Positions 9,321-35,504 of a stretch of 64,000 nucleotides of DNA are shown piece after piece (positions within the stretch are counted from its first letter, which is position 1; every line of letters begins with the position of its first letter). Made by a program: the position numbers and the translations under genes. Under the pieces are notes generated by a model. It saw only the letters and a program-made list of their open reading frames with translations, searched no databases and was not told the DNA's origin. Source of the stretch: Paenibacillus tianjinensis (GTDB lineage: Bacteria > Bacillota > Bacilli > Paenibacillales > Paenibacillaceae). The stretch lies in the NCBI RefSeq assembly GCF_017086365.1, contig NZ_CP070969.1, positions 930,001-994,000 on the forward strand, in the 5' to 3' direction.

Positions 9321-9565
9321 GTAAGTAGTCTAGCGAGCAGAGGACACGATGCGAGCTACTTAGCTGCTAAACAAAACAAGGGACGGTGTGAAAGGAACGG
9401 AGAGAAATTTTGGAGCTGTAAAAACGAAGTGTCCGCCTTTGTTCTCTGATTTCAACCGCTATCAGCGTTTTAATCAAGGAAAACAGAGAACAACAGCGGT
9501 CGGAAGCCCAAATCTTTCTCGTAGTGACGACACGCCGGACCAACCAAGCAAAGGAGGAGACCTTC
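9312..9565 (+). other. Intergenic region: stop-codon hairpin and structured repeat copy
   Basis: This is a 245-base gap inside the EPS operon. AGCAGTTAAGTA (9312-9323, containing the wzx stop) can pair over 12 positions with TACTTAGCTGCT (9357-9368). The structured repeat copy 1 follows at about 9391-9527. The ribosome binding site of the next gene (AAAGGAGGAG) ends the gap. No U-run follows the first hairpin, so it is more likely a processing or stability element than a terminator. No gene is supported here. Confidence 0.6.
9391..9527 (+). repeat. Structured intergenic repeat, copy 1
   Basis: Copy 1 of a four-copy family. Outer arms: GAGAAATTTTGGAGCT (about 9401-9416) against AGCCCAAATCTTTCTC (about 9505-9520). 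Inner stem: GTTCTCTG against CAGAGAAC. The apical hairpin is AACCGCT-ATC-AGCGTT with one bulged base. The shared unpaired or short-paired blocks GTCCGCCTTTG and ACAGCGGTCGGAAG are present. The bases of the inner stem differ from the other copies but still pair. It lies between the wzx and GT2 genes. Confidence 0.75.
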
Positions 9566-10420
9566 ATGGGTTCAGTGACAAGCGTGCTTGGCGGCCCGGG
9601 CAGTTACCCGATTTCGGCTGTCATCATTGCTCAGGATGACGAAGTTCGCATATCCAAAGCAATTCAATCCTGCCGACTATTCGCCGATGAGGTGGTCGTA
9701 ATCGACGGAGGGAGTAAAGACGGGACGGTGCAGCTGGCCGAAAGCCTGGACTGCCGGGTGTACGTTAACCCATGGCCCGGATATGCCAAACAAAGGGAAT
9801 TCGGGGTGGAACGCGCCGTCCATGATTGGGTCTTCCTGATTGATACCGACGAAGTGGTCAGCGATGAGCTGGCCCAGGATATCCTGCAGCGTAAGCCGGC
9901 TCTGACCGACAGGGCTGTGGCGTACTCGCTTTACCGGATCGGTGATTTCCTGGGCAGATGGCTGGACAAAGGAGAATACCTGGTGCGCCTGTACAACCGC
10001 AAGGAGTACGGCATCCGCAACTCCCTGGTACATGAAATGCCGGAGGTTGAGGAAGAGCGGACAGTCCGCCTGAACGGAATTCTCTGGCACCAGGGCTTCC
10101 GGAGCATCAATGACCATGTGGCCCGCTTTAACAAATACACCGATCTGGAGGCGCAAAGCGCTTTTGCCAGCGGTAAGCCGTTTAAGCTGAGAAATCTGCT
10201 GCTGCGGCCGCCGGCACGGTTCCTGCAGAAATATTTCCTGCACGGTTTGTTCAAAAAAGGCATTTCGGGATTCGCGGTTTCCGTATTCTGGGTGATGTAT
10301 GAATTCATGGTCGGCTTCAAGCATTACGAATTAACAAGCTCCAGCAAGCTGGCCCGGCACAATGCACAGGGTCAGGCGGAGAAAGAAAAGAAAGGGGAGC
10401 GAAGCTATGCCGTACAGTGA
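9566..10420 (+). CDS. Glycosyltransferase, family 2 (WaaE/KdtX-like)
   Basis: A 284-residue GT2 enzyme. Its core begins with PISAVIIAQDDEVRISKAIQ, continues with DEVVVIDGGSKDGTVQLA and shows WPGYAKQREFG and the metal-binding VFLIDTDEVVSDEL at about residues 90-103. This pattern belongs to the group that includes lipopolysaccharide-core beta-1,4-glucosyltransferases, so a glucosyl transfer is possible but not proven. A basic, partly hydrophobic C-terminal helix (about residues 215-255) suggests membrane association. ATG 9566 is chosen because AAAGGAGGAG lies 6-7 bases before it; the in-frame ATG 9524 falls inside the repeat element. It overlaps the next gene by 14 bases. Confidence 0.85.
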   Translation: MGSVTSVLGGPGSYPISAVIIAQDDEVRISKAIQSCRLFADEVVVIDGGSKDGTVQLAESLDCRVYVNPWPGYAKQREFGVERAVHDWVFLIDTDEVVSDELAQDILQRKPALTDRAVAYSLYRIGDFLGRWLDKGEYLVRLYNRKEYGIRNSLVHEMPEVEEERTVRLNGILWHQGFRSINDHVARFNKYTDLEAQSAFASGKPFKLRNLLLRPPARFLQKYFLHGLFKKGISGFAVSVFWVMYEFMVGFKHYELTSSSKLARHNAQGQAEKEKKGERSYAVQ

Positions 10421-11600
10421 CGGACTCAATATAATGACGACCGGCCTCAGTTGGCCATCGCTCCAGCCCGGCGGGCTCAACACGTATTTCAAATCCGTAT
10501 GTGAGCAGCTCTCCTCACGCAATCAGGTACATGCGCTGATCTGCAGCCAGGAGACGCCCTCCACCCCCAAAGAACTGATTATCCATAACGCCGGCGACCC
10601 TAAAGAGACCATCTGGAAGCGCAAGGATGCATTCCAGCGCAAGGCTGCGGATCTGATGGGAAACGGCAGCGGGCGTATTGATATCCTATATTCGCATTTT
10701 GCCCCATACGGCATTGGGCCGGCAATGGAAGCAAAGAAGCGGGGCATTCCGGTGATCATGACCTTTCACGGTCCGTGGAATGAAGAGATGAAGATCGAAG
10801 GACAGGGCATCAAGCACCGGGTCAAAACGACTATTGCCAAATCGATTGAACGCAAAGCCTATAAGCTGGCGGATAAATTCATCGTACTCAGCGAGTACTT
10901 CCGTGACATGCTACACACGCTGCACGGTGTGCCGCTGCACAAGATCATTGTTATCCCGGGCGCAGCGAACGTGGAACGTTTTGTTCCGGCAAGTAACAGG
11001 CTGGCGGTACGGCGGACGCTGAATCTGCCGGAGGGGGCTACGACAGTCCTGACCGTACGGCGGCTGATGAACCGTATGGGGCTGCTCCAGCTGCTGGATG
11101 CCTGGAAGCAGGTCACGGAACGGTTCCCGAATGCGATTCTGCTGATCGGCGGCAAAGGGCCGCTGCGTGCTGAACTGGAAGAAAAAATCGCCGATTACGG
11201 CCTTGCCAACAAGGTCCGGCTGCTCGGATACATTCCCGACCATCAGCTCGCCTCCTATTATCAGGCAGCCGATATGTTCGTGGTTCCCTCGCAGGCGCTG
11301 GAGGGTTTCGGCCTGATCACCGTTGAAGCACTTGCTTCGGGTCTTCCCGTAATGGCTACGCCGGTAGGCGGCAACAAAGAAATTCTGCAGGGCTTCCGCC
11401 CGGAGCTGCTGTTTAAGAGTGCGGCCAGTGATGATATGGCGGAAGGCATGATTCATATGCTAAGCAACCGTAAGCTGCTGCCAAGCCGCGACGAATGCCG
11501 GGATCATGTGCTGGAGAAATACACCTGGGAGCATGTTGGTGACCGAGTGGAATCCGTATTCCTTGAAACTTTGGGAAAGGGTGTGGCCGCAGGATGTTAA
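10407..11600 (+). CDS. Glycosyltransferase, family 4 (GT-B fold)
   Basis: A 397-residue GT4 enzyme with the two Rossmann-like domains of the GT-B fold. The N-terminal half has the acceptor-side loop SWPSLQPGGLNTYFKSV and FHGPWNEEMKIEG; the C-terminal half has VLTVRRLMNRMGLLQLLDAW, LIGGKGPLRAELE, VRLLGYIPDHQLASYYQAAD, and the nucleotide-sugar binding EGFGLITVEALASGLPV with the EX7E pair. ATG 10407 follows AAAGGGGAGC. The reading frame extends upstream to 10362, but that has no ribosome binding site. It overlaps its neighbours by 14 and 7 bases, so it is tightly coupled within the EPS operon. Retaining transfer of mannose or glucose is typical for the family; the donor is not determinable here. 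Confidence 0.9.
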   Translation: MPYSDGLNIMTTGLSWPSLQPGGLNTYFKSVCEQLSSRNQVHALICSQETPSTPKELIIHNAGDPKETIWKRKDAFQRKAADLMGNGSGRIDILYSHFAPYGIGPAMEAKKRGIPVIMTFHGPWNEEMKIEGQGIKHRVKTTIAKSIERKAYKLADKFIVLSEYFRDMLHTLHGVPLHKIIVIPGAANVERFVPASNRLAVRRTLNLPEGATTVLTVRRLMNRMGLLQLLDAWKQVTERFPNAILLIGGKGPLRAELEEKIADYGLANKVRLLGYIPDHQLASYYQAADMFVVPSQALEGFGLITVEALASGLPVMATPVGGNKEILQGFRPELLFKSAASDDMAEGMIHMLSNRKLLPSRDECRDHVLEKYTWEHVGDRVESVFLETLGKGVAAGC

Positions 11601-12733
11601 AAGTCGCTTATATTGATCACACCGCGAAGTGGAGCGGCGGAGAGGTTGCTCTTTTCAACATTCTTACCAATATCGGTGAGCAGATTGAGCCGCTGGTAAT
11701 CCTGGCGGAAGAAGGAACGCTTGCTGAACGGCTCCGCGAGAAAGGGATCGATGTCCGCATTATCCCGCTGGATGAGAGCATTCGCAGCCGCGGCAGAAAC
11801 GCCGTCAACCTCGGCGCTCCGGCAGCAGCCATTAAACTGCTGGCTTACGGAAGTAAGCTGGCTCCATTGCTCAAACAGGAGAAAGTGGATTGTGTGCATA
11901 CCAATTCTCTGAAGTCGGCCTTTTACGGCGCAGTTGCTGCCAAAAAAGCAGGAGTGCCGCTGATCTGGCACATCCGGGATCATATCGGAGCCCCGTACCT
12001 GAAGCCGGTTGTGGCCAAAGCTATCCGGCTCCTGTCACGCCTGCTCCCGAACGGCGTCATCGCCAACTCCCACTCTACGCTGAATGCGCTGGAGCTGCCC
12101 CGCACCAAAAAAACCCTCGTCGTGTATTCCGCTTTTGCCAAGGCGATCGGCGAAGGGATCGGCAAACGGGATCAGAAGGATTTCAACGTGCTCCTGGTAG
12201 GGCGGCTGGCACACTGGAAAGGCCAGCATGTCGTGCTGGAAGCAGCGAAGGCATTCAAACACGATAGCCGGGTTAAGTTCTGGCTGGCCGGTGACGCGCT
12301 TTTCGGAGAAGAAGAATACAAACAGGAGTTAATCCGCAAGATGCAGCAGGATGATCTGAGCAATGTTAGTCTGCTGGGACATGTGGATGACATACAAGGC
12401 TTGATGAATAAAGCAGATCTACTGATACACACGTCGATCACCCCCGAGCCGTTCGGCCAGGTTATCGTCGAAGGCATGGCGGCTGGACTGCCGGTGATCG
12501 CCTCCAATGAAGGCGGACCGGTAGAGATCGTAGTACCCGGTGTAACGGGACTGCTGATCCAGCCTGGAGACGCTAAGGTACTCGCAGAATCAATCACCTG
12601 GATGCTGGACCATCCCGAAGAGCGCAGACGGATGGCGGATAGTGGAATGAAGCGGGTGAAAGAGCACTTCGTCATCGAGAATACAGTCAAGGACATCGTT
12701 GACTACTACAAAGGTTTGCTGGCAGCGACCTAA
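11594..12733 (+). CDS. Glycosyltransferase, family 4 (GT-B fold)
   Basis: A 379-residue GT4 enzyme. N-terminal features: AYIDHTAKWSGGEVALFNIL and the HTNSLKSAFYGAVAAKKAGVP block, followed by LIWHIRDH. C-terminal features: LLVGRLAHWKGQHVVLEAA, FWLAGDALFGEE, VSLLGHVDDIQGLMNKADLL, and PEPFGQVIVEGMAAGLPV with the EX7E glutamates. ATG 11594 lies inside the end of the previous gene after GGGAAAGGGTG. It is part of a run of overlapping glycosyltransferase genes, one per sugar of the repeat unit, and is probably cytosolic at the membrane face. Confidence 0.9.
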   Translation: MLKVAYIDHTAKWSGGEVALFNILTNIGEQIEPLVILAEEGTLAERLREKGIDVRIIPLDESIRSRGRNAVNLGAPAAAIKLLAYGSKLAPLLKQEKVDCVHTNSLKSAFYGAVAAKKAGVPLIWHIRDHIGAPYLKPVVAKAIRLLSRLLPNGVIANSHSTLNALELPRTKKTLVVYSAFAKAIGEGIGKRDQKDFNVLLVGRLAHWKGQHVVLEAAKAFKHDSRVKFWLAGDALFGEEEYKQELIRKMQQDDLSNVSLLGHVDDIQGLMNKADLLIHTSITPEPFGQVIVEGMAAGLPVIASNEGGPVEIVVPGVTGLLIQPGDAKVLAESITWMLDHPEERRRMADSGMKRVKEHFVIENTVKDIVDYYKGLLAAT

Positions 12734-12833
12734 TAGATTCCCGAACTCAAGCCAAAGCGTAAACAACAACCGCCTGCATCCATACAATCACTACTTGATG
12801 ATGCTGCTCCATAAAACTTTGAGGATGATTCAC

Positions 12834-13934
12834 ATGAAAATTGCGATAGCGCACGATTACTTAATCCAAATGGGCGGGGCGGAAAGAGTAGTGGAAGTTT
12901 TCCACCACATGTATCCGGATGCTCCGATCTTCACGACGGTTTTTAACGGAAGCCGCCTAACCGACAACCTCAAAGATGCGGATATCCGGGCCTCCTGGCT
13001 GCAAAAAATTCCGGGAGTGAAGACCAATTTCAAAGGGGTGCTGCCGCTTTATCCCATGGCCATCCGAGATCTGGACTTTCGCGGATATGATATTGTCCTG
13101 AGTTCCAGCAGTGCTTTTATGAAAAGCATTCAGGTGCCCGAATCGACGTTTCATCTATGCTACTGCCATACGCCAATGCGCTTCGCCTGGGATTATGACA
13201 CATACATGGAGCGGCAATCAAACTCCGGACTGTTCAAAAGACTACTGAAGGTCTACATGCAGCGGCTCAAGTCCTGGGACCAGCGGACATCCAAAAATGT
13301 GAACCAGTTCGTAGCCAACTCTTCCGTAGTGAAGAAACGGATCCAGAACTATTATCACCGGGATGCCGATGTGATTTTCCCGCCGATCAACACCGCCCGG
13401 TTTACAAGCTCGAGTTCCATCGGCGATTATTACCTGATCGTCTCCCGGCTTGTTTCCTACAAGCGGATCGATCTCGCCGTGGAGGCCTTCAACCGCAATG
13501 GTCTTAAGCTCTATATTGTCGGTGACGGACCCGACCGCAAACGGCTGGAGGGCATGGCCAAAGATAATGTATCCTTCCTCGGACGGCTGGATGATGGAGA
13601 GGTAACAGGCCTGATGTCACAGTGCCGGGCATTTATCTTTCCGGGAGAAGAGGATTTCGGTATTACGCCGCTGGAGGCGAATGCCGCAGGCAGACCGGTC
13701 ATCGCTTATCAGGCCGGAGGCGCGCTGGACACCATCGTGCCATATGTCAACGGTGTGTTTTTTCAGAACCAGGAAGTTGACGATTTACTGAAGGCCATCC
13801 ACGAAGTGGAGTCCTACCCATGGGATATCGGCCAAATCATGGGCCATGCCCGCAAATTCGACGAACAAGCGTTTATGGTGCAGTTCAAGCAATATGTAGA
13901 GCAAGCCTACATTAATTTCCTAAAAGGAGGATGA
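12834..13934 (+). CDS. Glycosyltransferase, family 4 (GT-B fold)
   Basis: A 366-residue GT4 enzyme. It opens with MKIAIAHDYLIQMGGAERVV, a start shared by mannosyltransferase-like members of this family, then shows YDIVLSSSSAFMKSI, YCHTPMRFAWDYD and, in the second domain, YLIVSRLVSYKRIDLAVEAF, YIVGDGPDRKRLE, VSFLGRLDDGEVTGLMSQC and EEDFGITPLEANAAGRPVIA. ATG 12834 is chosen for the TGAGGATGATTCAC in front of it; the 135-base in-frame extension upstream reads through the intergenic gap and has no support. It lies 100 bases behind the previous GT4 and 4 bases before the dehydrogenase gene. A mannosyl transfer would fit the GDP-mannose made by ManC, as an inference only. Confidence 0.9.
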   Translation: MKIAIAHDYLIQMGGAERVVEVFHHMYPDAPIFTTVFNGSRLTDNLKDADIRASWLQKIPGVKTNFKGVLPLYPMAIRDLDFRGYDIVLSSSSAFMKSIQVPESTFHLCYCHTPMRFAWDYDTYMERQSNSGLFKRLLKVYMQRLKSWDQRTSKNVNQFVANSSVVKKRIQNYYHRDADVIFPPINTARFTSSSSIGDYYLIVSRLVSYKRIDLAVEAFNRNGLKLYIVGDGPDRKRLEGMAKDNVSFLGRLDDGEVTGLMSQCRAFIFPGEEDFGITPLEANAAGRPVIAYQAGGALDTIVPYVNGVFFQNQEVDDLLKAIHEVESYPWDIGQIMGHARKFDEQAFMVQFKQYVEQAYINFLKGG

Positions 13935-13938
13935 TTGT

Positions 13939-15279: not shown

Positions 15280-15753
15280 TCCAGAATCTCTTGCCCTTAT
15301 GAGCGCAGCTTTAGCTGCCGCTCCGCTCCTTGCCCTATAGCTGCCGCCCAATAAGCGGCAATACCGGATCTTTATCCGGTAGCTTGGCCGGTGGTTGAAG
15401 CGAGCAAAAAAGGCGATGCTTCCAGACTGCTCGCCCGAGCAAGCAGGAGTTCTTAACCGTAAGCTGTTATGGAATGGAACGGAGAGGGATTTTGGAACTG
15501 TAGGAGCGTATGCGTCCGCCTTTGTCTCCGGATTTCAACCGCGAAGAGCGTTCAATCAGGAAATCTGGAGACAACAGCGGCCGAAAGTCCAAACATTCCT
15601 TGCAGTGACTCTCATAACAGTGTGGTCTTTAAGAATTTTTGCGAAGCCAGCAGTGCTGCTCAAAGCAGTCCATCTTTTGCATCTGCACCGAGCGGCAGCT
15701 TACAATAACAATCCGATATTTTCGCGACAACACATAAATAGGAGGGTTCACTT
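15280..15753 (+). other. 474-base gap: tandem hairpins and structured repeat copy
   Basis: This is an unusually long gap between two genes on the same strand in the EPS locus. It starts with three small hairpins: GCAGCT/AGCTGC (15305-15318), TGCCGC/GCGGCA (15342-15360) and TACCGGAT/ATCCGGTA (15362-15381). None has a U-run, so none is a classical terminator. Repeat copy 2 follows at about 15469-15607, then about 120 bases leading to the manC ribosome binding site (AGGAGGG). Open reading frames in the gap cross the repeat and have no ribosome binding site or family resemblance. Confidence 0.65.
15469..15607 (+). repeat. Structured intergenic repeat, copy 2
   Basis: Copy 2 of the four-copy family and the one closest to a consensus. 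Outer arms run GAGAGGGATTTTGGAACT (15482-15499) against AGTCCAAACATTCCTTGC (15586-15603). The inner stem is GTCTCCGGATTT against AAATCTGGAGAC, 12 pairs with one G-T wobble. The apical hairpin is AACCGC-GAAGA-GCGTT. A small hairpin GGAGC-GTAT-GCGTCC sits between the outer and inner stems, followed by the conserved CGCCTTTG. Confidence 0.8.
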
Positions 15754-17127: not shown

Positions 17128-17247
17128 GCCTAAATAATCTATTTAACCAATTGTTACAAATCCAAAACAGGTATTTAGAACCATTTATTAAGAAATCTTC
17201 ATTTTTGCTATAAACCTACAACTTAATAGAGTCGATACTTACGGTAA

Positions 17248-17352
17248 GAAGGAGAAATCCTTCCAAAACGACAAAGGCAAACCTACTCGAAAGATAGGGA
17301 CGCAAAGCTATAGGGCCTCTTAAAAGTGGCAGCCTGGCTACCGAAAGGAAGA
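17248..17352 (+). ncRNA. c-di-GMP-I (GEMM-I) riboswitch with competing 5' hairpin
   Basis: The aptamer covers about 17265-17346. The core matches the GEMM-I pattern: AAAGGCAAACC, a hairpin with a GAAA tetraloop, GGGACGCAAAGC, TATAGGGCCT, and the closing GGCAGCC / GGCTACCG. The closing stem would be CTTCC (17260-17264) with GGAAG (17347-17351), and that GGAAG is the ribosome binding site of the TTG-started GH26 gene. The same CTTCC is also the 3' arm of a perfect hairpin GAAGGA-GAAA-TCCTTC (17248-17263), so the two pairings exclude each other. The simplest reading is translational repression when c-di-GMP is bound. Class assignment is firm; direction of control is inference. Confidence 0.9.
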
Positions 17353-17357
17353 TCATT

Positions 17358-19697
17358 TTGAAAACTTACCGTAAGTTTCGTTTGTTGTCCGCCGTGTTGT
17401 CTCTGGCTGTGTTTTTGTCCGCCGTACCGCTTGGACTAGGATTTGCACCTTCCTCGGTTAAAGCAGCTTCAAGTACAGCTGTGCCAGTTAATCCGGACGC
17501 TTCAGCTGAAGCCGTCAAGCTCCTCGATAGTCTGTATTCTATTTCCGGAAAAGGAATTATTTCAGGCCAGCATGATTATCTGGAGAGCCCGGATGAATTT
17601 AGCAACAAGCTGAAAGGAACAAGCGGACAATATGCCGCACTTCACGGATATGAGCTGGGAGTTATCAGCGGACAATCCGAAAGCACCGCCGCAATGCAAC
17701 GGAAGAATGTAGTCAATAGTGCGATCAACTGGTCTAAATCCGGCGGTATCGTAGCCATGACTTTTCATGAGAATCTGCCGGGCACTACGTATGATTGGGC
17801 TAATGTGCAGAAATCATTGACACAAGCAGAGTTTAACAAATATATAACACCAGGTACGGCACAGTACAACGCACTGATTGCCGATCTCGATAAAGTTGCA
17901 GTTTCACTCAAAAGCCTGCGGGATGCAGGAGTCCCCGTACTTTGGAGACCTTACCATGAGATGAACGGAGACTGGTTCTGGTGGGGAAAGAAGACCAACT
18001 TCGCCGGACTGTGGAATATTATGTATGACCGGTTTGTTAACTATCATAAACTTAACAATCTGCTGTGGGTATGGAATCCGAATGCTCCGAATGCCTGGTC
18101 TGATCCCTATGAGCTGACCTATCCTGGTGCGAATAAGGTCGATGTACTTGCAGCTGACATATACAATAATGATTATATGAATAAATATTATGACAGCCTG
18201 GTCAGTCTGGCTGCCGGTAAACCGGTTGGCATCGGTGAGAATGGCGAGATGCCGAGTATAGCTAAGCTGCAGCTATCCCAGAAGAATTACGTTTATATGA
18301 TGAACTGGGGAAAAATGCTCTATGATAACAACAGCACGACTACAATCACAAGCTTTATGAATGACAGCTACACCCTGACCCGGGATGAATATAAGGCATG
18401 GACAGTCCCTGGTGCAACGGCAACGCCGACAGCAACGCCAACAGCGACACCAACGGTAGCGCCAACAGCGACACCAACAGTAGCGCCAACAGCGACACCA
18501 ACGGCAACGCCTACAGCGACACCAACTCCAACGGTAGCACCTACAGCTACACCAACGCCGACCTCCTTACCTGAAAATACATTGCAGGCACCGGTACCGC
18601 TGGTAAACGGGCTTACAGGTGAATATTTCAAGAATATGACGCTGTCCGGCACGCCTGTGCTGGTACGCAATGATAGTTTACTTAATTTCAACTGGCGTCA
18701 GGCATCACCGGATGCTTCATTGCCTGTAGATATTTTTTCCGTACGCTGGACCGGTCTGATTAAGCCTTCTTATAGTGAAACCTATCAATTCTATACAACA
18801 TCGGATGATGGTATTCGTGTCTATGTGAATGGAACGGCCGTTATCGACAGCTGGATGAAACAGAGCGGTACCGAGCGTACCGGAAGCATTGCCCTGAAAG
18901 CAGGACAGTATTATGACATTAAAGTAGAATATTATGAAAATGCCGGTGACGCCAATATCCGGATGATGTGGCAGAGTCCAAGCCAGGCCAAAGTAACCGT
19001 TCCTTCAAGCGCATTGTTCTTAAAAAGCTCCATATCATCTATAAATACTGTTGAATCGTCATTAATGACGAATTCGCTGGCCATGGTACAGACAGTAACA
19101 GTGTCGCCAGCGCCGACAGCAACGCCAGCGCCGACAGCAGCACCAACGCCGACAGCAACGCAAGCGCCGACAGCAGCTCCAACGCCGACAGCGGCACCAA
19201 CGCCAACAGCGGCACCAACGCCAACAGCAACGCCAACGCCAGCGCCGACAGCAGCACCTGCGGTCAACGGGCTGCAAGGGGAGTATTTCAACAATATGCA
19301 GCTGGCGGGAACTCCCGCAGTTGTACGCACCGATGCGGTTCTTGACCTCAACTGGCGTTTGGGCTCGCCGGATGCGGCAATCGGAGTGGATTTCTTCTCC
19401 GTACGCTGGAGCGGTAAAATTAAGCCGCTGTATAGTGAGACGTACCAAATCTATACCTCTTCAGACGACGGTGTCCGTGTCTGGGTCAATGGCAGTCTCA
19501 TCATCGACAGCTGGGTGAAGCAGAGTGGAACCGAACGCATGGGAAGCATAAACCTGCAGGCAGGACAGTTATATGATATTAAAGTGGAATATTATGAGAA
19601 CCAAGGGGATGCAAGAGCGAAGCTGATGTGGGAAAGCCCGAGCCAGTTAAAGGGGACTGTCCCAACAAGCGCCTTGTTCCTACCTTCTGCTTCCTAA
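17358..19697 (+). CDS. Secreted GH26 endo-mannanase-like enzyme with two PA14 domains
   Basis: A 779-residue secreted protein. A signal peptide (cleavage after about Ala36, SSVKA-AS) precedes a GH26 domain (about 45-350) with acid/base Glu201 in WRPYHEMNGDWFWWG and nucleophile Glu294 in GIGENGE. A TATPT/TVAPT-rich linker (about 353-405), a PA14 domain (about 415-560), a second Pro-Thr linker (about 595-640) and a second PA14 domain (about 648-779) follow. GH26 enzymes cleave beta-mannosidic backbones; PA14 is a sugar-binding beta-barrel. It starts at TTG 17358, six bases after GGAAG. The position right after manC and the riboswitch leader suggest that it acts on the locus's own polymer, which is inference; a plant mannan is the other option. 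Confidence 0.88.
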   Translation: MKTYRKFRLLSAVLSLAVFLSAVPLGLGFAPSSVKAASSTAVPVNPDASAEAVKLLDSLYSISGKGIISGQHDYLESPDEFSNKLKGTSGQYAALHGYELGVISGQSESTAAMQRKNVVNSAINWSKSGGIVAMTFHENLPGTTYDWANVQKSLTQAEFNKYITPGTAQYNALIADLDKVAVSLKSLRDAGVPVLWRPYHEMNGDWFWWGKKTNFAGLWNIMYDRFVNYHKLNNLLWVWNPNAPNAWSDPYELTYPGANKVDVLAADIYNNDYMNKYYDSLVSLAAGKPVGIGENGEMPSIAKLQLSQKNYVYMMNWGKMLYDNNSTTTITSFMNDSYTLTRDEYKAWTVPGATATPTATPTATPTVAPTATPTVAPTATPTATPTATPTPTVAPTATPTPTSLPENTLQAPVPLVNGLTGEYFKNMTLSGTPVLVRNDSLLNFNWRQASPDASLPVDIFSVRWTGLIKPSYSETYQFYTTSDDGIRVYVNGTAVIDSWMKQSGTERTGSIALKAGQYYDIKVEYYENAGDANIRMMWQSPSQAKVTVPSSALFLKSSISSINTVESSLMTNSLAMVQTVTVSPAPTATPAPTAAPTPTATQAPTAAPTPTAAPTPTAAPTPTATPTPAPTAAPAVNGLQGEYFNNMQLAGTPAVVRTDAVLDLNWRLGSPDAAIGVDFFSVRWSGKIKPLYSETYQIYTSSDDGVRVWVNGSLIIDSWVKQSGTERMGSINLQAGQLYDIKVEYYENQGDARAKLMWESPSQLKGTVPTSALFLPSAS
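18416..18560 (+). repeat. Tandem Pro-Thr linker repeats (coding)
   Basis: Within the GH26 gene, short units of the form GCAACGCCNACA / ACACCAACGGTAGCG are repeated many times and encode TATPT and TVAPT units of a flexible linker. A second, related tract lies at about 19106-19255. Near-identical 12-15 base units make these tracts candidates for length change by slippage or recombination. Confidence 0.8.
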
Positions 19698-19908: not shown

Positions 19909-21426
19909 TTGAACACTAACCGCAAGTTCCGGCTATTTACGACGATTTTGCCTATTATCTTCATTCTCTCTTTACTGCCCTGGTCGGAGGTACGCAGCCT
20001 TCCTGTTACCCGGACTGTGTCTATCCCGGCAGCAGTGAATACTCCGATCAATCCTAACGCTTCCCAGGAGGCGGCCGATTTGCTGACCTATCTATCGAAT
20101 CTCAGCGGTAACGGCATGATTTCAGGACAGCATGACTATCTGGAAAGTCCTGATGAATTCAACAATAAGCTGAAAAAGGCCACCGGGCAATCTGCTGTTT
20201 TGCACGGTTATGAGCTTGGAGCAATCAATAATCAATCGGAATCGGCCATTAAGCGGCAGCGTAAGGCTGTGGTGAACAGTGCAATTAAATGGCATAAGGG
20301 CGGAGGCATTGTAGCGATGACCTTTCATCAGAACCTGCCCGGCACTTCTCCGGAATGGGCCAATGTGCATATGAGTCTCAGCCAGGAGATGTTTGATGCC
20401 TATGTGACTCCGGGAACAGCACAATATAAGAATCTGATTGCCGATATTGACGAGATTGCCGGGTATCTGGAAGATCTTCAGGATGCCGGAGTACCGGTTC
20501 TGTGGCGTCCCTATCATGAAATGAACGGAGACTGGTTCTGGTGGGGGAATAAAGACAACTTCACTAAGCTCTGGGACATCATGTATAACCGTTTAACAAA
20601 CACGCACAAGCTGAACAATCTGTTATGGGTATGGAACCCTAATGCACCTAATGAATGGTCGGATGACTTTGAACCCTATTTTCCCGGATCGGGAAAAGTG
20701 GACATTCTGGCGGCAGATATTTATAACAATGACTTCAAGCAGTCCTATTATGAGAATCTGCTGAAGCTGGCAGACGGAAAGCCTATCGGCATCGGGGAAA
20801 GCGGAGAGCTCCCAGACCCTGTTATATTGTCTCAAACCCAAAGTAAATGGGTATATACCATGACATGGGGGAAAATGCTGACTGAAAAAAATGATCTGCA
20901 GAAAATCAAAAATTTTATGAATGATAATTACATCGTTTCCCGCGATGATTATATTATTATGCTCGCCAGCAATCCGAACACGAAGCCTTCCGCTTCGACC
21001 AAGGGATTAAGGGCGCAATATTTCAACAATATTGACCTGTCCGGCGGAGCACAGCTGATTCGTAATGACAACAAGATTGACTTCAACTGGCATGGGGACG
21101 CTCCGGCAGTCGGCCTTGGGAAGGATCTCTTCTCGGTTCGCTGGACCGGATCGATCATGCCGATATATAGTGAGAGATATACGTTTACGGCCTCTTCGGA
21201 TGACGGAGTGCGGCTCTGGATTGACGATAAACTGGTGATTGACAGCTGGAAGAAGCAGAGCGGCGTCGGACGTGAGGGAAGCATCGAGCTTACCGCCGGA
21301 ACCTCATATGCTATTAAAGTGGAGTACTATGAGAATCGCGGGGACGCCAATATCCGTTTATTGTGGAAGAGTGCCAGCCAGAAGCAGGGGGTTATCCCCA
21401 AAAGTGCATTAACCCTCCCTAAGTAA
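19909..21426 (+). CDS. Secreted GH26 endo-mannanase-like enzyme with one PA14 domain
   Basis: A 505-residue paralogue of the upstream GH26 enzyme with the linkers and one PA14 domain missing. The N-terminus carries a signal peptide (basic NRKFRLF, then a hydrophobic stretch to about residue 24). GH26 domain about 45-350: acid/base Glu204 in WRPYHEMNGDWFWWG and nucleophile Glu297 in GIGESGE. PA14 domain about 365-505. Both N-termini share the RKFRL start and SGQHDYLESPDEF block, which points to a tandem duplication. It starts at TTG 19909, 7 bases after AGAAAGGAG. Like its neighbour it would be exported and act on a mannose-containing polysaccharide outside the cell. Confidence 0.87.
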   Translation: MNTNRKFRLFTTILPIIFILSLLPWSEVRSLPVTRTVSIPAAVNTPINPNASQEAADLLTYLSNLSGNGMISGQHDYLESPDEFNNKLKKATGQSAVLHGYELGAINNQSESAIKRQRKAVVNSAIKWHKGGGIVAMTFHQNLPGTSPEWANVHMSLSQEMFDAYVTPGTAQYKNLIADIDEIAGYLEDLQDAGVPVLWRPYHEMNGDWFWWGNKDNFTKLWDIMYNRLTNTHKLNNLLWVWNPNAPNEWSDDFEPYFPGSGKVDILAADIYNNDFKQSYYENLLKLADGKPIGIGESGELPDPVILSQTQSKWVYTMTWGKMLTEKNDLQKIKNFMNDNYIVSRDDYIIMLASNPNTKPSASTKGLRAQYFNNIDLSGGAQLIRNDNKIDFNWHGDAPAVGLGKDLFSVRWTGSIMPIYSERYTFTASSDDGVRLWIDDKLVIDSWKKQSGVGREGSIELTAGTSYAIKVEYYENRGDANIRLLWKSASQKQGVIPKSALTLPK

Positions 21427-27409: not shown

Positions 27410-27446
27410 CGTACACACTCCTTCATATTAGAGAGATTCCAGGCTG

Positions 27447-27941: not shown

Positions 27942-28206
27942 CTTATTCACCGCCTGTATAGGTTCAACCTGCTCTTATTTTAACATAGAGCAGTATTTAT
28001 AGGCATTAATCAACAAGGTTTGACATCATTTGGCGCCTAGTGGAAGATCAGCTCATTACTTGCGGCCGCCGGGACTTAAGCATTTTTACCCTGAGGCTGA
28101 CAGCAGTAACCATAGAGTAATACAGTACTGCGGACTGGCTGGTTTCATTTTGGCTACCTTGCAGCAGGAATATAACGTATACTTTGAACGGGAAGGGGCT
28201 GAGGAT

Positions 28207-28893: not shown

Positions 28894-29031
28894 AATCATT
28901 CATTTCGTCACGTTTAGACAAAAACTCATCTTTAGCAAAGAGGCTGTCCCATAAGTAGATTTTTTCGAGTAGAGACAGACCCTTTTCATTATTCAAAACC
29001 GAAAAACGTCAACAATGTAGCGATTCTCCTG

Positions 29032-30591
29032 TTATTGGAGGATCGCTGCTCTGCGTTTTTGGTCGTTTGCAGCTTGCTTCAGTAGATTGTGGGCAAGGGA
29101 AAGCCATCCGACTTCAAGCGTCACTTTTTCCATGCCGCGAAGCAGAAACCGCCGGAAACCCCGGTTGTTCTTTAGTTGTCCAAATACACTTTCTGGTTCT
29201 GTCATTCGACGTACGGCCAAAGTGAAGCCTTCCTCGCTTTGCAAAATTGCCCGAGCTTGTTTCTGGTACCGCAGTCGTTCCAGACTGACAACCACTTCCC
29301 GATTTCCTTCGGCTTTCGTACATCTTTCCTTCAGTGGACAGCCCACGCAGCTCTGGCTACGGTAATGACGTTTTCGGATTTCATATCCACTCTCTAACGT
29401 TTCCTTGCTTTCTTTGCGAAAATGCAGCGTTTGTCCGGCGGGGCATGTCCATGTATCCACGGCTTCGTCGTACGTCCAGTTCTCAATCTTTCCGATATTC
29501 TCTTTCCACGCTTTGCTCTTTTCTTTGTGGTAGCTGCCGTATTTGACCACGGCCTTCACGTGTTCGTTTTCCAAATAGGCATAATTTTCTTCACTGCCGT
29601 AGCCGGCATCCGCGATCACCGCCCTCGGAAGTCTCCCTAGGATCTGCCGCACCTTTTCTAAGTGCGGCTGTAAACAACGCGTATCCGTCGGTCTTTGGTG
29701 TAGACTGTACGCCAAAATAAACTGGTTTTCGGTGCCGATCTGTACATTGTAGCCGGGTTTGAGTTGACCGTTTCGCATGTGATCTTCCTTCATCCGCATG
29801 AAGGTGGCATCCGGGTCCGTCTTACTAAAGCTGTTTCGGTCCCCGAGCAGGTTTTGGTATTGCTCATATTTCAGCAGTCTCGGAAACAGATCCTTACGGA
29901 GCCTCCGAACCGCTTTTTTCAATGGCTTGTTCTTGGGCTTCTTCAGCAGTTGCGACTCTAACGACTGGGTCATTTGTTCAAGTTTCTCACTGTCGATCTC
30001 GGCGGACTCGCCAAGTTCGCTCAGGTCCTGGCCGCGGTGTTCCTGTTCTTCTTGTTTCTCTGCAGCCTCAATGTCGGCAAACAATGCATGTACCTTTTCT
30101 TGCAGCTTGGCTTTATGCTTACTAACGGCTTTACCCCACACGAAGGTATAGCGATTCGCATTTGCCTCTATTTTTGTGCCATCTACAAAATAATGCTCGA
30201 AGGAGATGTATTTCTCGTCCGCCAGAAACTGAAGCACGGCGGTAAATACCATTTCTAGGACGTCCTTCATCCGCTGAGAACGAAAGCGGTTGAGCGTGCG
30301 GAAATCCGGGCGTTGTCGTCCCGCTAGCCACATGAAGGGAATGTTTTCTCGGACCGCTTTGGCGATTTGCCGGGAGGAATAAATGCGCTGCGTATACGCA
30401 TAGATAATGACTTTGGTGAGCATTTTAGGGTGGTAGCTGTCACGGCCGCCACCGGGATAGGCAGCGTCAAAGATGGTGTCGTCTAGCCGATTGACGGCTG
30501 CGTTAACGACACGAACGAGGTGGTTTTCGGGAATATCTTCTTCCAGATCCATTGGCAAGCAAAGTTGGTCCATGGTATATTGAATGTACAA
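29032..30591 (-). CDS. IS1182-family transposase
   Basis: A 519-residue DDE transposase with an N-terminal DUF772-type domain and a C-terminal DDE domain. Candidate catalytic residues lie in YFVDGTKIEANANRYTFVWGK (first Asp), VIADAGYGSEENY (second Asp) and ESVFGQLKNNRGFRRFLLRG (Glu). CPAGQTLHF...CVGCPLKERCT gives a four-Cys zinc-like cluster typical of this family. TTG 30591 is the likely start, after AAAGGAGAGG; ATG 30573 is an alternative, and a longer frame to 30684 lacks a site. The gene is intact. The ribosome binding site is inside a hairpin (30603-30642), a common protection against read-through expression. A stem overlaps the stop codon. Confidence 0.9.
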   Translation of the reverse strand: MYIQYTMDQLCLPMDLEEDIPENHLVRVVNAAVNRLDDTIFDAAYPGGGRDSYHPKMLTKVIIYAYTQRIYSSRQIAKAVRENIPFMWLAGRQRPDFRTLNRFRSQRMKDVLEMVFTAVLQFLADEKYISFEHYFVDGTKIEANANRYTFVWGKAVSKHKAKLQEKVHALFADIEAAEKQEEQEHRGQDLSELGESAEIDSEKLEQMTQSLESQLLKKPKNKPLKKAVRRLRKDLFPRLLKYEQYQNLLGDRNSFSKTDPDATFMRMKEDHMRNGQLKPGYNVQIGTENQFILAYSLHQRPTDTRCLQPHLEKVRQILGRLPRAVIADAGYGSEENYAYLENEHVKAVVKYGSYHKEKSKAWKENIGKIENWTYDEAVDTWTCPAGQTLHFRKESKETLESGYEIRKRHYRSQSCVGCPLKERCTKAEGNREVVVSLERLRYQKQARAILQSEEGFTLAVRRMTEPESVFGQLKNNRGFRRFLLRGMEKVTLEVGWLSLAHNLLKQAANDQKRRAAILQ

Positions 30592-30602
30592 AAGAAACCT
30601 CT

Positions 30603-30642
30603 CCTTTGAAATGGTTGTGTGGTAACTCCATTTTACCAAAGG
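30603..30642 (-). promoter_or_regulatory. Hairpin sequestering the transposase ribosome binding site
   Basis: On the transposase strand CCTTTGGTAAAATGG pairs with CCATTTCAAAGG over 12 positions with a 3-base bulge. The AAAGGAG ribosome binding site is in the 3' arm. Transcripts entering from outside would fold it shut and limit transposase translation. Confidence 0.65.
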
Positions 30643-30697
30643 ATGGTTTCTTTTTTGTGCGATTTTTAAAGATTGTAGATCCATTTCCCGCTTAAAC

Positions 30698-30822
30698 AGC
30701 GGAGAGGACGGAACGATTGTGGAAAAGCGGCAGCGGTCGCCTTGGTCTCCGGATTTTCACCGCTAAGGGGAATGAAAAAAATCTGGAGAGCACAGCGATT
30801 GGAACAACGGTCCGTTCGCGGA
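30698..30822 (+). repeat. Structured intergenic repeat, copy 3 (diverged)
   Basis: This is the most diverged copy. The inner stem TCTCCGGATTTT / AAAATCTGGAGA is kept. The TCCGC/GCGG pairing of the other copies is here TCGC/GCGA, a compensatory change. Outer arms (CGGAACGATTGT and ACAACGGTCCG) pair only imperfectly and the apical hairpin is lost. It lies between the transposase start and the candidate right end of the insertion sequence. Confidence 0.6.
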
Positions 30823-30863
30823 GCGTCCACCCAAGTGCTCACGTTGATCCTACTTAAAAAAAC

Positions 30864-30916
30864 AGGGGCTATCCCAAGCAGCCATTTCATGGCTTTTGGG
30901 ACAGCCCCTTTTTTTG
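30864..30916. terminator. Strong terminator-like hairpin next to the insertion sequence
   Basis: AGGGGCTATCCCAAGCAGCC pairs with GGCTTTTGGGACAGCCCCT across the loop ATTTCAT, followed by a T-run on the + strand and preceded by an A-run, so it could act both ways. It may be the original terminator of the M50B-type gene, now separated from it by the insertion. Confidence 0.65.
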
Positions 30917-31013
30917 TCGATAATATAGATGCGAACATACATTCCATGACAAGGAGTTGTCCGCCATTATTGGTACATTAATAGAAGAACCAAAAAAAGA
31001 AAGAGGTGGAAAT

Positions 31014-31664: not shown

Positions 31665-31917
31665 CTCAGCTGCACATGATGAAGGGGTGGAACGAAGCAG
31701 AATATTAGTTGGAATGAATTGAAACATACATAATAGCACAACCCGAACTCTCTTTCTCGATCATTTAACAGCTCATGTAATATATGTGTGGTAATGTAGT
31801 AAAATAGTTCTATTATATTATCTTAATTCGGTTATTACATTATTAGTTGTAGATATATATAACTAATTCATTTAAAATAATGGGTCTATTTTACCATATA
31901 TCAAGGGGAACTGAACA
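31665..31917 (+). other. AT-rich gap before the WYL regulator gene
   Basis: 253 bases, strongly AT-rich from 31790, probably carrying the promoter of the regulator at 31918. The ribosome binding site is CAAGGGGA. No conserved structure or gene was recognised. Confidence 0.4.
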
Positions 31918-32883
31918 ATGACAGACCGATTAATCCGGCTGATGCGCATTATCACACTAGTGCAAGCTAAACCTGGGATCCTGGCACGTGAGCTGGCGGA
32001 ACGCTGCGGCAACAGTGAAAGAACGATATATCGGGATATGGACGCGCTAAGCGCAATGCATATCCCGATTACCCATATGGGACATGGGAAGGGATATGCG
32101 TTTATCGGTAACTTTGCATTGTACCCTTTAGATCTGACGGATAGTGAGGCGGCTGCATTTTCCCAGCTGCGCCATGTGATGAAAGACATCAAGCCTTTGC
32201 TGCCGACTGAATTTGAAAATGCCTATGAGAAAATAATGGCTGTACAATATAAGCAGAAAGCAGAAAGGGAAGAAAAAATGGAAAGCGTCACAAAAGAAGC
32301 CGGGAATCTTTGGACGGAACGGAGTCCATTGGCGATCGAGCAATCGGCTTTTTTAACGGAAATATTGTCCGCTGTGATGAAACAAAAAAGCTTCCAGGCG
32401 GACTACTGCGAAAATGCAAATGAGGAAAGAGGGTTACAGATTGATCCGTACTGCCTTGTTCCGCTGGAGAACCGGATCTATGTGATCGGCTTATGCCACA
32501 GGTTTGGGAGGATCCGGGCTTTTCATGTTAACGGTTTTTCCAATGTCACCCTGCTGAATAACTGGTTTTCAAAAGAGCGGTTTGATATACAGTCCTTTAT
32601 GTCGCAGAAATGGAGCCTTGATCCGGACAGCCTGCAGATAGAGTTCAGAATTAGATTTTCCGAACGGATGATGGACAGAATCAAACACGAGGAGCTGATG
32701 GTAAAACCCAGTAAAGTTGACCGCCAGAACTGCTGCATGCACTTCAAAGTAGCCATCGAACAAGATATCTGTTTTGTCCGCTGGATCATGAGGTTCGAGG
32801 AGGAAGCGGAGATTTTGGAGCCGTTTTATTACCGGGACGCATTGAAATATCATATGGAAAGTTGGCTGATGTTATATAAATAA
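31918..32883 (+). CDS. YafY-type transcriptional regulator (HTH_11 + WYL)
   Basis: A 321-residue DNA-binding protein. The N-terminal winged helix (residues 1-60) contains RLMRIITLVQAKPGILAREL and CGNSERTIYRDMDALSAMHI, the classical HTH_11 pattern. A helical linker is followed by the WYL domain (about 140-225; DPYCLVPLENRIYVIGLCHR and the RIRAFHVNGFSNVTLL strand), with a WCX-like C-terminus. WYL domains bind ligands such as nucleotides or nucleic acid ends. ATG 31918 has CAAGGGGAAC upstream. No neighbouring gene is obviously regulated by it; the peptide transporter genes start 257 bases downstream. Confidence 0.82.
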   Translation: MTDRLIRLMRIITLVQAKPGILARELAERCGNSERTIYRDMDALSAMHIPITHMGHGKGYAFIGNFALYPLDLTDSEAAAFSQLRHVMKDIKPLLPTEFENAYEKIMAVQYKQKAEREEKMESVTKEAGNLWTERSPLAIEQSAFLTEILSAVMKQKSFQADYCENANEERGLQIDPYCLVPLENRIYVIGLCHRFGRIRAFHVNGFSNVTLLNNWFSKERFDIQSFMSQKWSLDPDSLQIEFRIRFSERMMDRIKHEELMVKPSKVDRQNCCMHFKVAIEQDICFVRWIMRFEEEAEILEPFYYRDALKYHMESWLMLYK

Positions 32884-33140
32884 TACAGGATGTTACAGGA
32901 ATTATTCCTGTTTCACCATGATTAAACCTCCTAAATTCATCGGGTTAGTTATGCGTACAAATTTTTCTTGTCTACGGTAGATTTCTATAGTAATGTTATA
33001 CATTAAATAACAACTATGTTGATTATGCCCGAAATTAATATCATTAGATGTCAGGTTTGGGTTATAATATCTTACTTTTTAAGGGTTTTTCATCCTCCCA
33101 TTTGACCTTTGTTCAATTTTTAGTAGAAAGAGGGTTCATC
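32884..33140 (+). other. Gap before the peptide transporter genes
   Basis: 257 bases. A short ACAGGAA-TTA-TTCCTGT hairpin (32895-32911) may end the regulator transcript. TATAAT at 33062-33067 is a candidate -10 element without a clear -35. The ribosome binding site AGAAAGAGGG precedes 33141. Nothing else was recognised. Confidence 0.45.
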
Positions 33141-34133
33141 ATGATCCAGCCAATTCTGAAAATTGAGGATTTGCATACCCATTTTTTTACCGACCGCGGT
33201 GAAGTGCCAGCCGTTGACGGTGTTGACCTGTACATCAATCCAGGAGAGGTCCTTGGTGTGGTTGGTGAATCCGGTTGCGGTAAAAGTGTGACCTCATTGT
33301 CTATCCTGAAGCTGGTTCCGAACCCGCCAGGGAAGATTGTGGACGGCCGTATCCTATTAAAAGGTCGGGATATCGTTCCGCTTAAGGAAAAAGAGATGCG
33401 TAAAATCCGCGGGGATTCCGTATCGATGATTTTTCAGGAGCCGATGACCTCGCTTAACCCTCTGTTTACAGTAGGGCAGCAGATCATCGAAACGGTAAGG
33501 CAGCACCGCGGCTTGTCCAAAAAAGAAGCGCGGGAGCACGCAGTCGAGATGCTGAGCAAAGTCGGTATTCCGCGTCCTGAGGCTATTATTGATGAGTATC
33601 CGCATCAATTGTCAGGGGGCATGCGCCAGAGAGTTATGATTGCGATGTCGATATCCTGTAGTCCGGAGCTGTTGATTGCCGATGAGCCGACAACGGCGCT
33701 GGATGTAACCATTCAAGCGCAGATTCTGGATCTGATCCGTCGCCTGAACGAAGAACAGGGAACAGCTGTGATGCTGATTACCCACGATCTTGGCGTTGTT
33801 GCAGAAATGTGCCACCGGGTTGCTGTAATGTATGCAGGCAAGGTGGTCGAAGAGGGCAGCGTTCGTGATATCTTCAAGAATCCGCTGCATCCGTATACCC
33901 GCGGCCTGATAGAGTCCGTGCCGCGGATGAATGAGACCCGGGAACGGCTGTATTCCATCCCCGGCAATGTACCGATCCTCAGCACAGAGATGCAGGGCTG
34001 CCGGTTCGCTCCCCGTTGTGCGAATGTTATGGATGTTTGCCGTGAATCGCTTCCGCAGCTTACCCTGCAGGAGGAGCAGCATAGCTGCAGATGCTGGCTG
34101 CATGAAGTCAGTCAGGAGGAGGCAGTGGTATGA
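33141..34133 (+). CDS. Peptide ABC transporter ATPase, OppD/DppD type
   Basis: A 330-residue ATP-binding subunit that powers uptake of peptides or related nickel/glutathione-type substrates. Motifs: Walker [10 protein letters not shown]-loop [11 protein letters not shown], signature LSGGMRQR, Walker [13 protein letters not shown] and the switch His in LITHDLGVV. The C-terminal oligopeptide domain contains [12 protein letters not shown] and [14 protein letters not shown], where cysteines bind an iron-sulfur cluster in relatives. ATG 33141 follows AGAAAGAGGG; a longer frame to 33048 has no site. Its stop overlaps the next start (ATGA), typical of the OppD-OppF pair. Confidence 0.92.
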
Positions 34134-35122
34134 GCGAAAGCCTGCTTGAGGTTAAGAACCTCAAAAAGTATTATCCGATCAATAAAGGATTCTTCAATAA
34201 AACGCAGGGCTTCATCAAAGCTGTAGATGATATCTCGTTCTCGGTAAACAAAGGCGAAACCTTTGGTCTGGTAGGAGAGAGCGGCTGCGGTAAATCGACA
34301 ACCGGGCGTTCGCTGCTGCGGCTGATAGAGCCGACAGCAGGCGAAATCTGGTTTGAAGGGCAAGACATCACGAAGTTGTCGATGGAAGAAATGCGCAGGC
34401 GCCGCCGGGAAATGCAGATTGTGTTTCAGGATCCGTTCTCCTCACTTGATCCGCGAAATACGGTGCAGCGGATTCTGGAAGAGCCGATGATCGTTCACGG
34501 TGTAGGCGATGCTAAGCAGCGGAGGGCTGCCGTGGAGCGGCTGGCTGACGTTGTTGGTCTTGCCAAAGCGCATCTGCAGCGGTATCCGCATCAATTCTCA
34601 GGCGGACAACGCCAGCGGATCGGCATTGCCAGGGCACTGGCTCTGCAGCCAAAACTGATTATCGCCGACGAACCGGTGTCTGCACTGGATGTTTCCATCC
34701 AGTCACAGGTGATCAATCTGATGCAGGATTTACAGCAGGAATTCGGATTGACCTACATATTTATTGCCCATGATCTTAGCGTAGTGAAGCACATCTGCGA
34801 CCGGGTTGCTGTAATGTACCTGGGACGGATCGTGGAGGTTACGGATAAGCATAAGCTGTATGACGAACCACAGCATCCTTATACACAGGCACTGCTCTCG
34901 GCGGTTCCTGAACCGGATCCGGATATCCGCAAGGAGCGGGTAATTCTCCAGGGTGAAGTGCCGAGCCCGGCCAATGCACCGGTCGGTTGTGCTTTTAATA
35001 CCCGGTGTCCGCGGGTGATGGATGTATGCCGGAATGTAAGACCGCCGCTGCTTGAGACCGGAGCAGGTCATTTGACAGCCTGCCATCTCTATGACGGAGA
35101 ATCCAATGTCCGGCTGGCTTAG
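34130..35122 (+). CDS. Peptide ABC transporter ATPase, OppF/DppF type
   Basis: A 330-residue partner ATPase. It begins LLEVKNLKKYYPINKGFF as typical for OppF, with Walker [23 protein letters not shown], signature FSGGQRQR, Walker B LIIADEPVSALD and IFIAHDLSVVKHI. The C-terminal cysteine region (GCAFNTRCPRVMDVC) is present. It overlaps the upstream gene by four bases. The binding-protein and permease genes follow after a gap of 382 bases that contains repeat copy 4, an unusual break in such an operon. Confidence 0.92.
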   Translation: MSESLLEVKNLKKYYPINKGFFNKTQGFIKAVDDISFSVNKGETFGLVGESGCGKSTTGRSLLRLIEPTAGEIWFEGQDITKLSMEEMRRRRREMQIVFQDPFSSLDPRNTVQRILEEPMIVHGVGDAKQRRAAVERLADVVGLAKAHLQRYPHQFSGGQRQRIGIARALALQPKLIIADEPVSALDVSIQSQVINLMQDLQQEFGLTYIFIAHDLSVVKHICDRVAVMYLGRIVEVTDKHKLYDEPQHPYTQALLSAVPEPDPDIRKERVILQGEVPSPANAPVGCAFNTRCPRVMDVCRNVRPPLLETGAGHLTACHLYDGESNVRLA

Positions 35123-35504
35123 AGGACTAACAACCACATCAATATAAGATGAACGGTAGGTATGATTGGAGGCAAAAGCAGCGGAGGGGAAGTTTGGAAC
35201 TGTAGGAGCGAATGCGTCCGCCTTTAGGTTTGGATTTCTACCGCGAAATGCGGTTAAAATCGGGAAATCCAAACCTAACAGCGGCCGGAAGTCCAAACAT
35301 TCCCCGCAGCCTGCGTATGATGCCGGAAGGGTGAGGCTAGAGTTCAGTTTATACAGAAAACTCCACCAAGAATGATCCTTTGTATTCATCGTGAACGGTA
35401 ATGACCGTGAGTAAAGGAAGTGGATTTGGTATATGGCTGCACTTTGCTGCAGCTCCATATAAACGCTTTAATACATTCAATGATAGAAGGGAGCTTTTCT
35501 AGAG
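35123..35504 (+). other. 382-base gap inside the peptide transporter genes
   Basis: The gap contains structured repeat copy 4 (about 35177-35310) and then about 190 bases leading to the binding-protein gene, with AGAAGGGAG as its ribosome binding site. A separate promoter for the binding protein is likely but I could not locate it with confidence. Open frames in the gap cross the repeat and are not supported. Confidence 0.5.
35177..35310 (+). repeat. Structured intergenic repeat, copy 4 (best paired)
   Basis: This is the best-formed copy. Outer stem: GCGGAGGGGAAGTTTGGA (35180-35197) against TCCAAACATTCCCCGC (about 35292-35307), nearly continuous. Inner stem: TAGGTTTGGATTT against AAATCCAAACCTA, 13 perfect pairs. 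Apical hairpin: ACCGC-GAAAT-GCGGT, perfect. The side hairpin GGAGC-GAAT-GCGTCC and conserved CGCCTTT and ACAGCGGCCGGAAG are present. Compared with copy 2 the inner stem has changed on both sides while pairing is kept. Confidence 0.85.

Follow-up and report, generated by a model that had tools for sequence, protein, structure and literature searches.

What are the four similar blocks that lie, all in the same orientation, in a 64,000-nucleotide stretch of Paenibacillus tianjinensis DNA (contig NZ_CP070969.1, positions 930,001 to 994,000; hereafter, the window)? An earlier note, made from the sequence alone, described them as a folded intergenic element of about 130 bases that matched no family it could name, its stems kept paired by selection on an RNA or a hairpin DNA. 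Our preferred reading, to which we give a probability of roughly 0.55, is that the blocks belong to a high-copy Paenibacillales element resembling a miniature inverted-repeat transposable element (MITE), and that this element bears a structured RNA module that is embedded in mRNA and acts in cis, the exact action of which we infer.

The structured core and its distribution

The blocks occupy the positions first given for them and share one orientation. Each core has an outer stem, a junction with a small side hairpin, and an inner stem with an apical hairpin, as follows (window coordinates).

9326 to 9549, plus strand: copy 1, whole insertion of about 220 bp, ends approximate; the site is empty in loci L189 and L190, where the flanks abut
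9381 to 9541, plus strand: copy 1, outermost stem (9381-9388 with 9533-9541), which covaries among orthologs
9391 to 9527, plus strand: copy 1, core; outer stem 9399-9417/9505-9520, side hairpin 9424-9430, CCGC 9433-9436 with GCGG 9496-9499, inner stem 9439-9453/9478-9493, apical hairpin 9458-9466
15469 to 15607, plus strand: copy 2, core; outer stem 15480-15499/15586-15602, side hairpin 15505-15515, inner stem 15522-15536/15559-15574, apical hairpin 15540-15550; terminal repeats not recognized
30690 to 30828, plus strand: copy 3, core, inside an IS1182-like transposon, pointing outward and antisense to the transposase
35143 to 35353, plus strand: copy 4, whole MITE-like element; terminal repeats 35143-35154 and 35342-35353
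35172 to 35314, plus strand: copy 4, core; outer stem 35184-35201/35290-35305, side hairpin 35207-35217, inner stem 35223-35238/35263-35278, apical hairpin 35240-35254

The unit exceeds the 130 bases or so that the earlier note allowed it: between surviving terminal inverted repeats it measures 203-251 bp (203-213 bp in two-ended copies, plus four of 241-251 bp), and comparison with the empty site gives about 220 bp for copy 1. A home-made open reading frame (ORF) caller puts each block between genes, as claimed, with the qualification that copy 3 lies inside a transposon (28940-30908); copy 1 shares a few bases with a putative GTG start codon of the following gene, and some copies are overlapped by short or antisense mechanical ORFs. 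The junction of the core is well conserved (AGCG-n-GCG-YCGCC-TTT ... AACAGCG-RYCG-RAAG). The inner-stem arms quoted in the earlier note are found in all the blocks, and the change from CCGC/GCGG to TCGC/GCGA is seen in copy 3. Folding z-scores for copies 1-4 are -3.5, -3.3, -2.5 and -6.3 (200 shuffles each), with 5 of 200 shuffles folding as well as copy 3 and none of 200 as well as copies 1, 2 or 4.

The covariance search that had been proposed, run with a model built from 32 copies of the same genome, yielded at least 82 matches at E <= 0.001 in its 6.27 Mb, a lower bound because 150 of 1977 candidates were scored; BLAST with copy 2 found at least 44 matching places there (40 of 85 candidates scored). 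Copies number 5 to 79 per genome in 24 genomes of the genus (80 candidates scored each). Under stricter filters, matches occur in 107 of 149 genomes and 22 of 38 genera of the order Paenibacillales, and a class-wide draw gave matches in 9 of 121 genomes, all nine in one family; the hosts among the 80 matches listed are Paenibacillus, plus records labelled Bacillus sp. FJAT-27264. An Rfam scan of the cores returned no family at or above its gathering threshold, the eps-associated RNA (EAR) included, and a riboswitch or known RNA is rejected on that ground; the best sub-threshold match is chance-like (eukaryotic mir-4716 at L447, 29.9 bits against a threshold of 76, E 1.5e-4). A phage origin is rejected as well, the phage records searched containing no match, and plasmid records gave two weak matches, both from Paenibacillus. 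No description of the family was found in the open-access literature searched. This is a real, high-copy, structured element, apparently unnamed as far as we have found.

The stems covary. Among 32 paralogs of the genome, 97.2% of cells are paired, against 90.0% in shuffles, and two-sided change is seen in 27 of 42 pairs, while sliding the alignment brings pairing down to 35-46%. For 119 copies from many genomes the values are 95.3% against 83.7%, with two-sided change in 39 of 42 pairs, which bears out the original claim of covariation under selection as RNA or hairpin; this model-fitted alignment draws on 96 loci or sources (29 from the same-genus set and 67 of 120 named stretches), its rows are partly redundant, and for about 12 of its weak matches a better match exists on the other strand. 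The most telling evidence comes from orthologs of copy 1. In 24 of them, from 24 species, 98.3% of cells are paired and 19 of 48 pairs show two-sided change, the outermost stem included (24 of 30 loci used, after three with an extra hairpin, one truncated and two empty were dropped). In these three sets every covariation measure lies above all shuffles and slid versions, bar the count of further pair types in the copy-1 orthologs, which does not exceed shuffles (28 vs 34.4).

Two-sided change need not have been selected point by point. Dispersed copies could swap whole hairpin cassettes by gene conversion, both arms then shifting together, and several observations point that way: two adjacent inner-stem pairs of the copy-1 orthologs mostly switch jointly, CT/AG against TC/GA; few one-sided intermediates accompany the 99 two-sided cells there (G-U 9); L185 has a copy-4-type inner hairpin at the copy-1 site; and an optional 38-nt hairpin is gained or lost at one point among near-identical relatives. 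As the whole account, such concerted change is doubtful, leaving unexplained the pairing within each cassette, the different and paired outer stem of another genus, an excess of G-U cells, and the covarying outermost stem of copy 1. It can operate together with selection on RNA, and gene conversion between copies, as in the two-pair haplotypes of copy 1, the swapped cassette of L185 and the exchangeable hairpin, probably adds to the covariation; paralog covariation alone therefore overstates stepwise selection. With ortholog and cross-genus evidence at hand, the case is not dependent on paralog covariation alone.

In the other genus the outer stem pairs GGAATCGATTCT with AGAACGATCC, and in Paenibacillus GGAATTTTGGAACT with AGTCCAAACATTC; the sequences differ and both pair, and despite this the junction (AGCG...GCG..CGCCTTT / AACAGCG....AAG) is the same in the two. 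A constant junction amid variable helices is, on sequence grounds, the pattern of a protein-binding or tertiary RNA domain. An RNA folded from the sense strand should tolerate G-U and not A-C. Cells with G-U outnumber those with A-C among the genome's own paralogs (74 vs 9), the copy-2 orthologs (49 vs 5; 17 of 30 loci used, with eight carrying an extra hairpin, four empty and one divergent dropped) and the copies of the other genus (22 vs 5; 19 of 20 used), as they do in a 6S RNA control (163 vs 4). By this wobble asymmetry three of the four element sets behave like RNA, the counts being of cells, not events, which common ancestry may inflate; the fourth set is weighed below.

Carriers, insertion sites and an IS110 target

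A common carrier of the core is a MITE with TATAGATTGAAC-like ends, presumably mobilized in trans by a putative transposase. The genome contains the motif TATATAGATTGAACT 57 times at up to 2 mismatches, against 6 for the reversed control, and the 16-base end motif is present in 36 of 41 genomes of the genus, among the matches listed (reversed control 0-1 per strand per genome). Removing 13 copies of insertion sequence (IS) type, assigned by eye, leaves 69 of the 82 matches; both TATAGATTGAAC-like ends are recognized in 22 of these, one in 13 and none in 34 (up to 3 mismatches; shuffled flanks give 5-8% per end). Window copies 1-3 have no recognized TATAGATTGAAC-like terminal repeats. TA stands on both sides of 10 of the 22 two-ended copies, the other 12 differing, and the carrier appears to duplicate TA on insertion; the copy-4 locus, where L196 and L197 can be compared with L203, has a clean TG duplication rather than TA. 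Both features by which a MITE is recognized, terminal inverted repeats and target-site duplication, are thus found. Copies also nest in one another: L003, L009 and L012 of the same genome each lie within a second copy that runs the same way, at its apical loop or close by, L009 and L003 as clean insertions at an apical-loop TA and L012 more degraded, and L400 provides a fourth case; the loci at which such nesting was noted also include L031 and L032.

Comparison of relatives, which the earlier note had recommended as a test of mobility, reveals element-free loci for copies 1, 2 and 4. The copy-1 site holds it in 28 of the 30 best-scoring loci (28 genomes, one copy truncated), between the same two genes, and is empty in L189 and L190; the copy-2 site holds it in 26 of the 30 best-scoring and is empty in L365, L368, L369 and L370; and the copy-4 site holds it in 6 of 28 loci having both flanks. 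Because the queries contained the element, these sets favor element-bearing loci. Copies 1 and 2 have been retained vertically in many species, and close relatives offer natural sites, some occupied and some empty, for comparison. The earlier note had set a structured RNA against a known Rfam family or MITE. Rfam offers none above threshold and the MITE-like features (terminal repeats, TA flanks, nested insertions, empty sites) are present; 'structured RNA' and 'mobile element' are therefore both true, the likeness among copies is partly owed to transposition, and the earlier interpretation is partly supported.

Copy 3 travels differently, in an insertion sequence of its own.

28940 to 30908, minus strand: IS1182-like insertion sequence, with ends GAGGCTGTCCCA and TGGGACAGCCCC
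29032 to 30684, minus strand: transposase ORF, 550 aa as the longest ORF, the true start maybe further in; PF13751, PF05598, PF01609

We take the family to be IS1182; the carrier encodes a DDE transposase that includes DUF772, and its ends, at 28940 and 30908, match. Nine core copies of the genome have an identical score and near-identical surrounding stretches, the copy at L102 has an upstream part without the transposase end, and cores in other genomes (L401, L402, L432) adjoin similar IS1182-like ends. This suggests that an IS1182-like transposon group carries the core, in a divergent version, as a regular part.

The core is itself a target. An IS110-type gene (PF01548, PF02371) interrupts the copy at L302, and a search of 100 genomes found nine IS110 copies, with proteins at least 80% identical, in four genomes (L302 and L430, the latter in G041, share flanks and are counted once). 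All nine are inserted at one core position, CGC-CT ^ CT-TTG, with CT on both sides as read by eye, in six MITE-type and three IS-type cores (L302, L400-L403, L430-L434). The core serves as a landing site for this one IS110 group, which has in it a natural, element-specific target. None of the distant IS110 copies scanned (at most 52% identity; one locus per genome, L404-L429) has both core halves at the IS ends, and core-like motifs away from the IS ends occur in L416, L421, L422, L424 and L425. An end-motif scan among the matches listed gave one end pair more than 350 bp apart in 399 loci, at L302; as an autonomous partner of the MITE it is rejected, being the core split by an IS110.

At the IS110 insertion point lies also the optional hairpin of about 38 nt, within a core in 68 of its 69 distinct occurrences among the loci scanned. 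Its presence differs between near-identical relatives at the sites of copy 1 (L168/L176, L173/L182, L178/L188), copy 4 (L191/L194) and copy 2 (L357/L358), and L345 is also among its loci. Compared by eye, the hairpin and the ends of that IS110 have only the CT flank in common. The sole match to the hairpin off the core position, L077:1408, stands about 90 bp before a core match.

Direction among genes and the possible role of the fold

Both neighbors could be called, with the same home-made ORF caller, for 65 of the 69 non-IS copies, giving 44 ++, 6 --, 8 -+ and 7 +- contexts. Between co-directional genes the element is therefore sense rather than antisense by 44:6 (binomial p 3e-8). Forty copies in other genomes include 26 ++ and 5 --, of which 14:3 come from 20 copies of another genus; some same-genus copies in this set are orthologs of the genome's own and not independent. 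Of the 44 tandem contexts, 12 have terminator-like sites upstream of the element, against 1.2 in shuffles, and 3 have them downstream, against 0 in shuffles; since these sites are mostly upstream, the element tends to sit 5' of the next gene. A Rho-independent terminator is rejected, terminator-like sites across the core and its flanks being present in 3 of 44.

EAR, of Bacillales eps operons, is a processive antitermination element, and a core that likewise modified RNA polymerase would let MITE-interrupted operons be read through. Such a role would suit the sense orientation, the conserved junction and the fact that a polysaccharide gene cluster houses copies 1 and 2, copy 1 between genes of the polysaccharide flippase and glycosyltransferase families. 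We consider it improbable: a terminator-like site separates element and next gene in just 3 of 44 tandem contexts, a scarcity that disfavors antitermination, copy 4 lies upstream of a peptide-binding transporter gene, and Rfam gives no match to EAR. A family of trans-acting small RNAs or riboswitches, for which a conserved junction with variable stems would also be fitting, is very improbable and not favored, given dozens of mobile copies per genome, the same 3 of 44 for terminator-like sites after the element, and the different kinds of genes that follow the window copies, where this comparison was made.

Several observations weigh against a role in host mRNA. Assuming an origin at base 1 and a terminus at about 3.1 Mb, 56 of the 69 non-IS copies lie on the leading strand, so that the directions of transcription and replication are not separated, and 11 of 13 IS-borne copies lead under the same assumption. 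Of the nine identical IS copies, 3 are followed by a gene in sense orientation and 5 by one in antisense. Sense bias is 14:2 for copies with both ends and 20:3 for those with none; it is thus independent of age as judged by the ends, and may be a bias of insertion. Retention is far from universal, at least 25 genomes having the copy-1 flanks less than 50 bp apart with no element (L189 and L190 included). No autonomous transposase with TATAGATTGAAC-like ends was found among the matches scanned. Finally, the copy-1 orthologs contain 9 G-U cells and 11 A-C cells; that locus alone therefore does not favor RNA over a DNA hairpin, and for this reason a pure DNA hairpin is kept as a rival.

In that rival the element is a selfish MITE only, its fold serving transposition (as a DNA hairpin or in transposase recognition) or arising incidentally from palindromic ancestry. 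Terminal repeats, TA flanks, nested copies, element-free loci and IS1182-like carriers are all consistent with it, as are a strand preference that follows the assumed replication direction, the missing G-U excess at copy 1 and the sense bias already present in copies with intact ends. We regard it as somewhat unlikely. It would not lead one to expect that 34 of 69 copies have no recognizable ends and that end-less copies such as window copy 2 retain the core, that copies 1 and 2 keep their pairing at fixed sites across many species, that G-U exceeds A-C in the three other sets, or that sense bias between genes reaches 44:6, unlike that of the pneumococcal repeats as far as their description in PMC3049150 extends.

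On the preferred reading, a module acting in cis in mRNA, the core would be transcribed within the downstream mRNA, in its leader or between cistrons, and fold there, and its conserved junction would be recognized by a putative host RNA-binding or RNA-processing factor, with an effect on mRNA processing or stability. By analogy with the Correia elements of Neisseria, the likeliest action would be that of an RNase III-type processing or protection site, which would render operon insertions tolerable and, at some loci, of enough use for retention. A bolder version, which we offer tentatively and hold to be rather doubtful, is that the order-wide RNA module might be the 'passport' of at least two unrelated transposon carriers, rendering operon insertions harmless or useful through the junction in the mRNA, and a safe harbor exploited exclusively by the RNA-guided IS110 group. 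With this element one can ask directly whether repeats inserting between genes bear an RNA that protects expression.

Elsewhere in the window, a c-di-GMP-I-GGC riboswitch at 17267-17346 (61.9 bits, above gathering) precedes the ORF at 17358; this large ORF (17358-19697) contains 12-bp and 18-bp periodic tandem repeats at 18390-18586 and 19095-19273. A 53-bp motif is repeated in three ORFs (17934-17986, 20494-20546, 46513-46565).

Comparison with known repeats and targets

MITEs of the IS630/Tc1-mariner type have TA at the insertion point. The Paenibacillales element has TA in common with them and differs by one clear TG site and in that no transposase with its ends was found in our scans.

The closest parallel for the proposed action is the Correia element (CREE/NEMIS) of Neisseria, a MITE whose mRNA-borne stem is bound or cut by RNase III (PMC2649163). 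In the text of that source available to us, CREE are, like the element described here, small intergenic MITE-like repeats with a conserved core and inverted repeats, many of them 5' of genes; their stem, however, is formed by 26-bp inverted repeats, whereas the Paenibacillales core folds around its conserved junction even where it is end-less. The ends differ too, being TATAGATTGAAC-like and not the 26-bp Correia repeat, and the hosts are Paenibacillus and relatives, not Neisseria.

BOX, RUP and SPRITE of Streptococcus pneumoniae are likewise high-copy and structured when transcribed, BOX and RUP having IS-like terminal repeats, and BOX is likewise modular, its optional boxB scarcely disturbing the other parts (PMC3049150, in the portion available). 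They lie on the leading strand in 61-63% of cases, mirroring the coding bias, and are over-represented between convergent genes according to the same portion; here, in contrast, the strand assumed to be leading holds 56 of 69 copies, and the element is sense in 44 of 50 tandem contexts. The boxA-(boxB)n-boxC arrangement does not occur in our element, which has a single optional hairpin of about 38 nt in a fixed place; the distinction is drawn by arrangement, not by sequence. In the Bacillus cereus group, MITE-like bcr1-3 lie in untranslated regions (UTRs) and operon gaps, and bcr10 and bcr18 have a conserved structure and are transcribed in 5' UTRs (PMC3446304). As that paper's accessible part describes them, bcr1-bcr18 are known from one species group, whereas the Paenibacillales family extends over 22 genera; the two are set apart by these descriptions.

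IS110 elements insert at defined points of repetitive extragenic palindromic (REP) sequences, with a CT core in IS621, as the available text of two papers has it (PMC1525189, PMC11208160); the IS110 target in the Paenibacillales differs in being a covarying, multi-helix core. The element belongs to a known class of small mobile intergenic repeats, within which it is unusual for its order-wide spread, its constant junction, its direction bias and its dedicated IS110 parasite.

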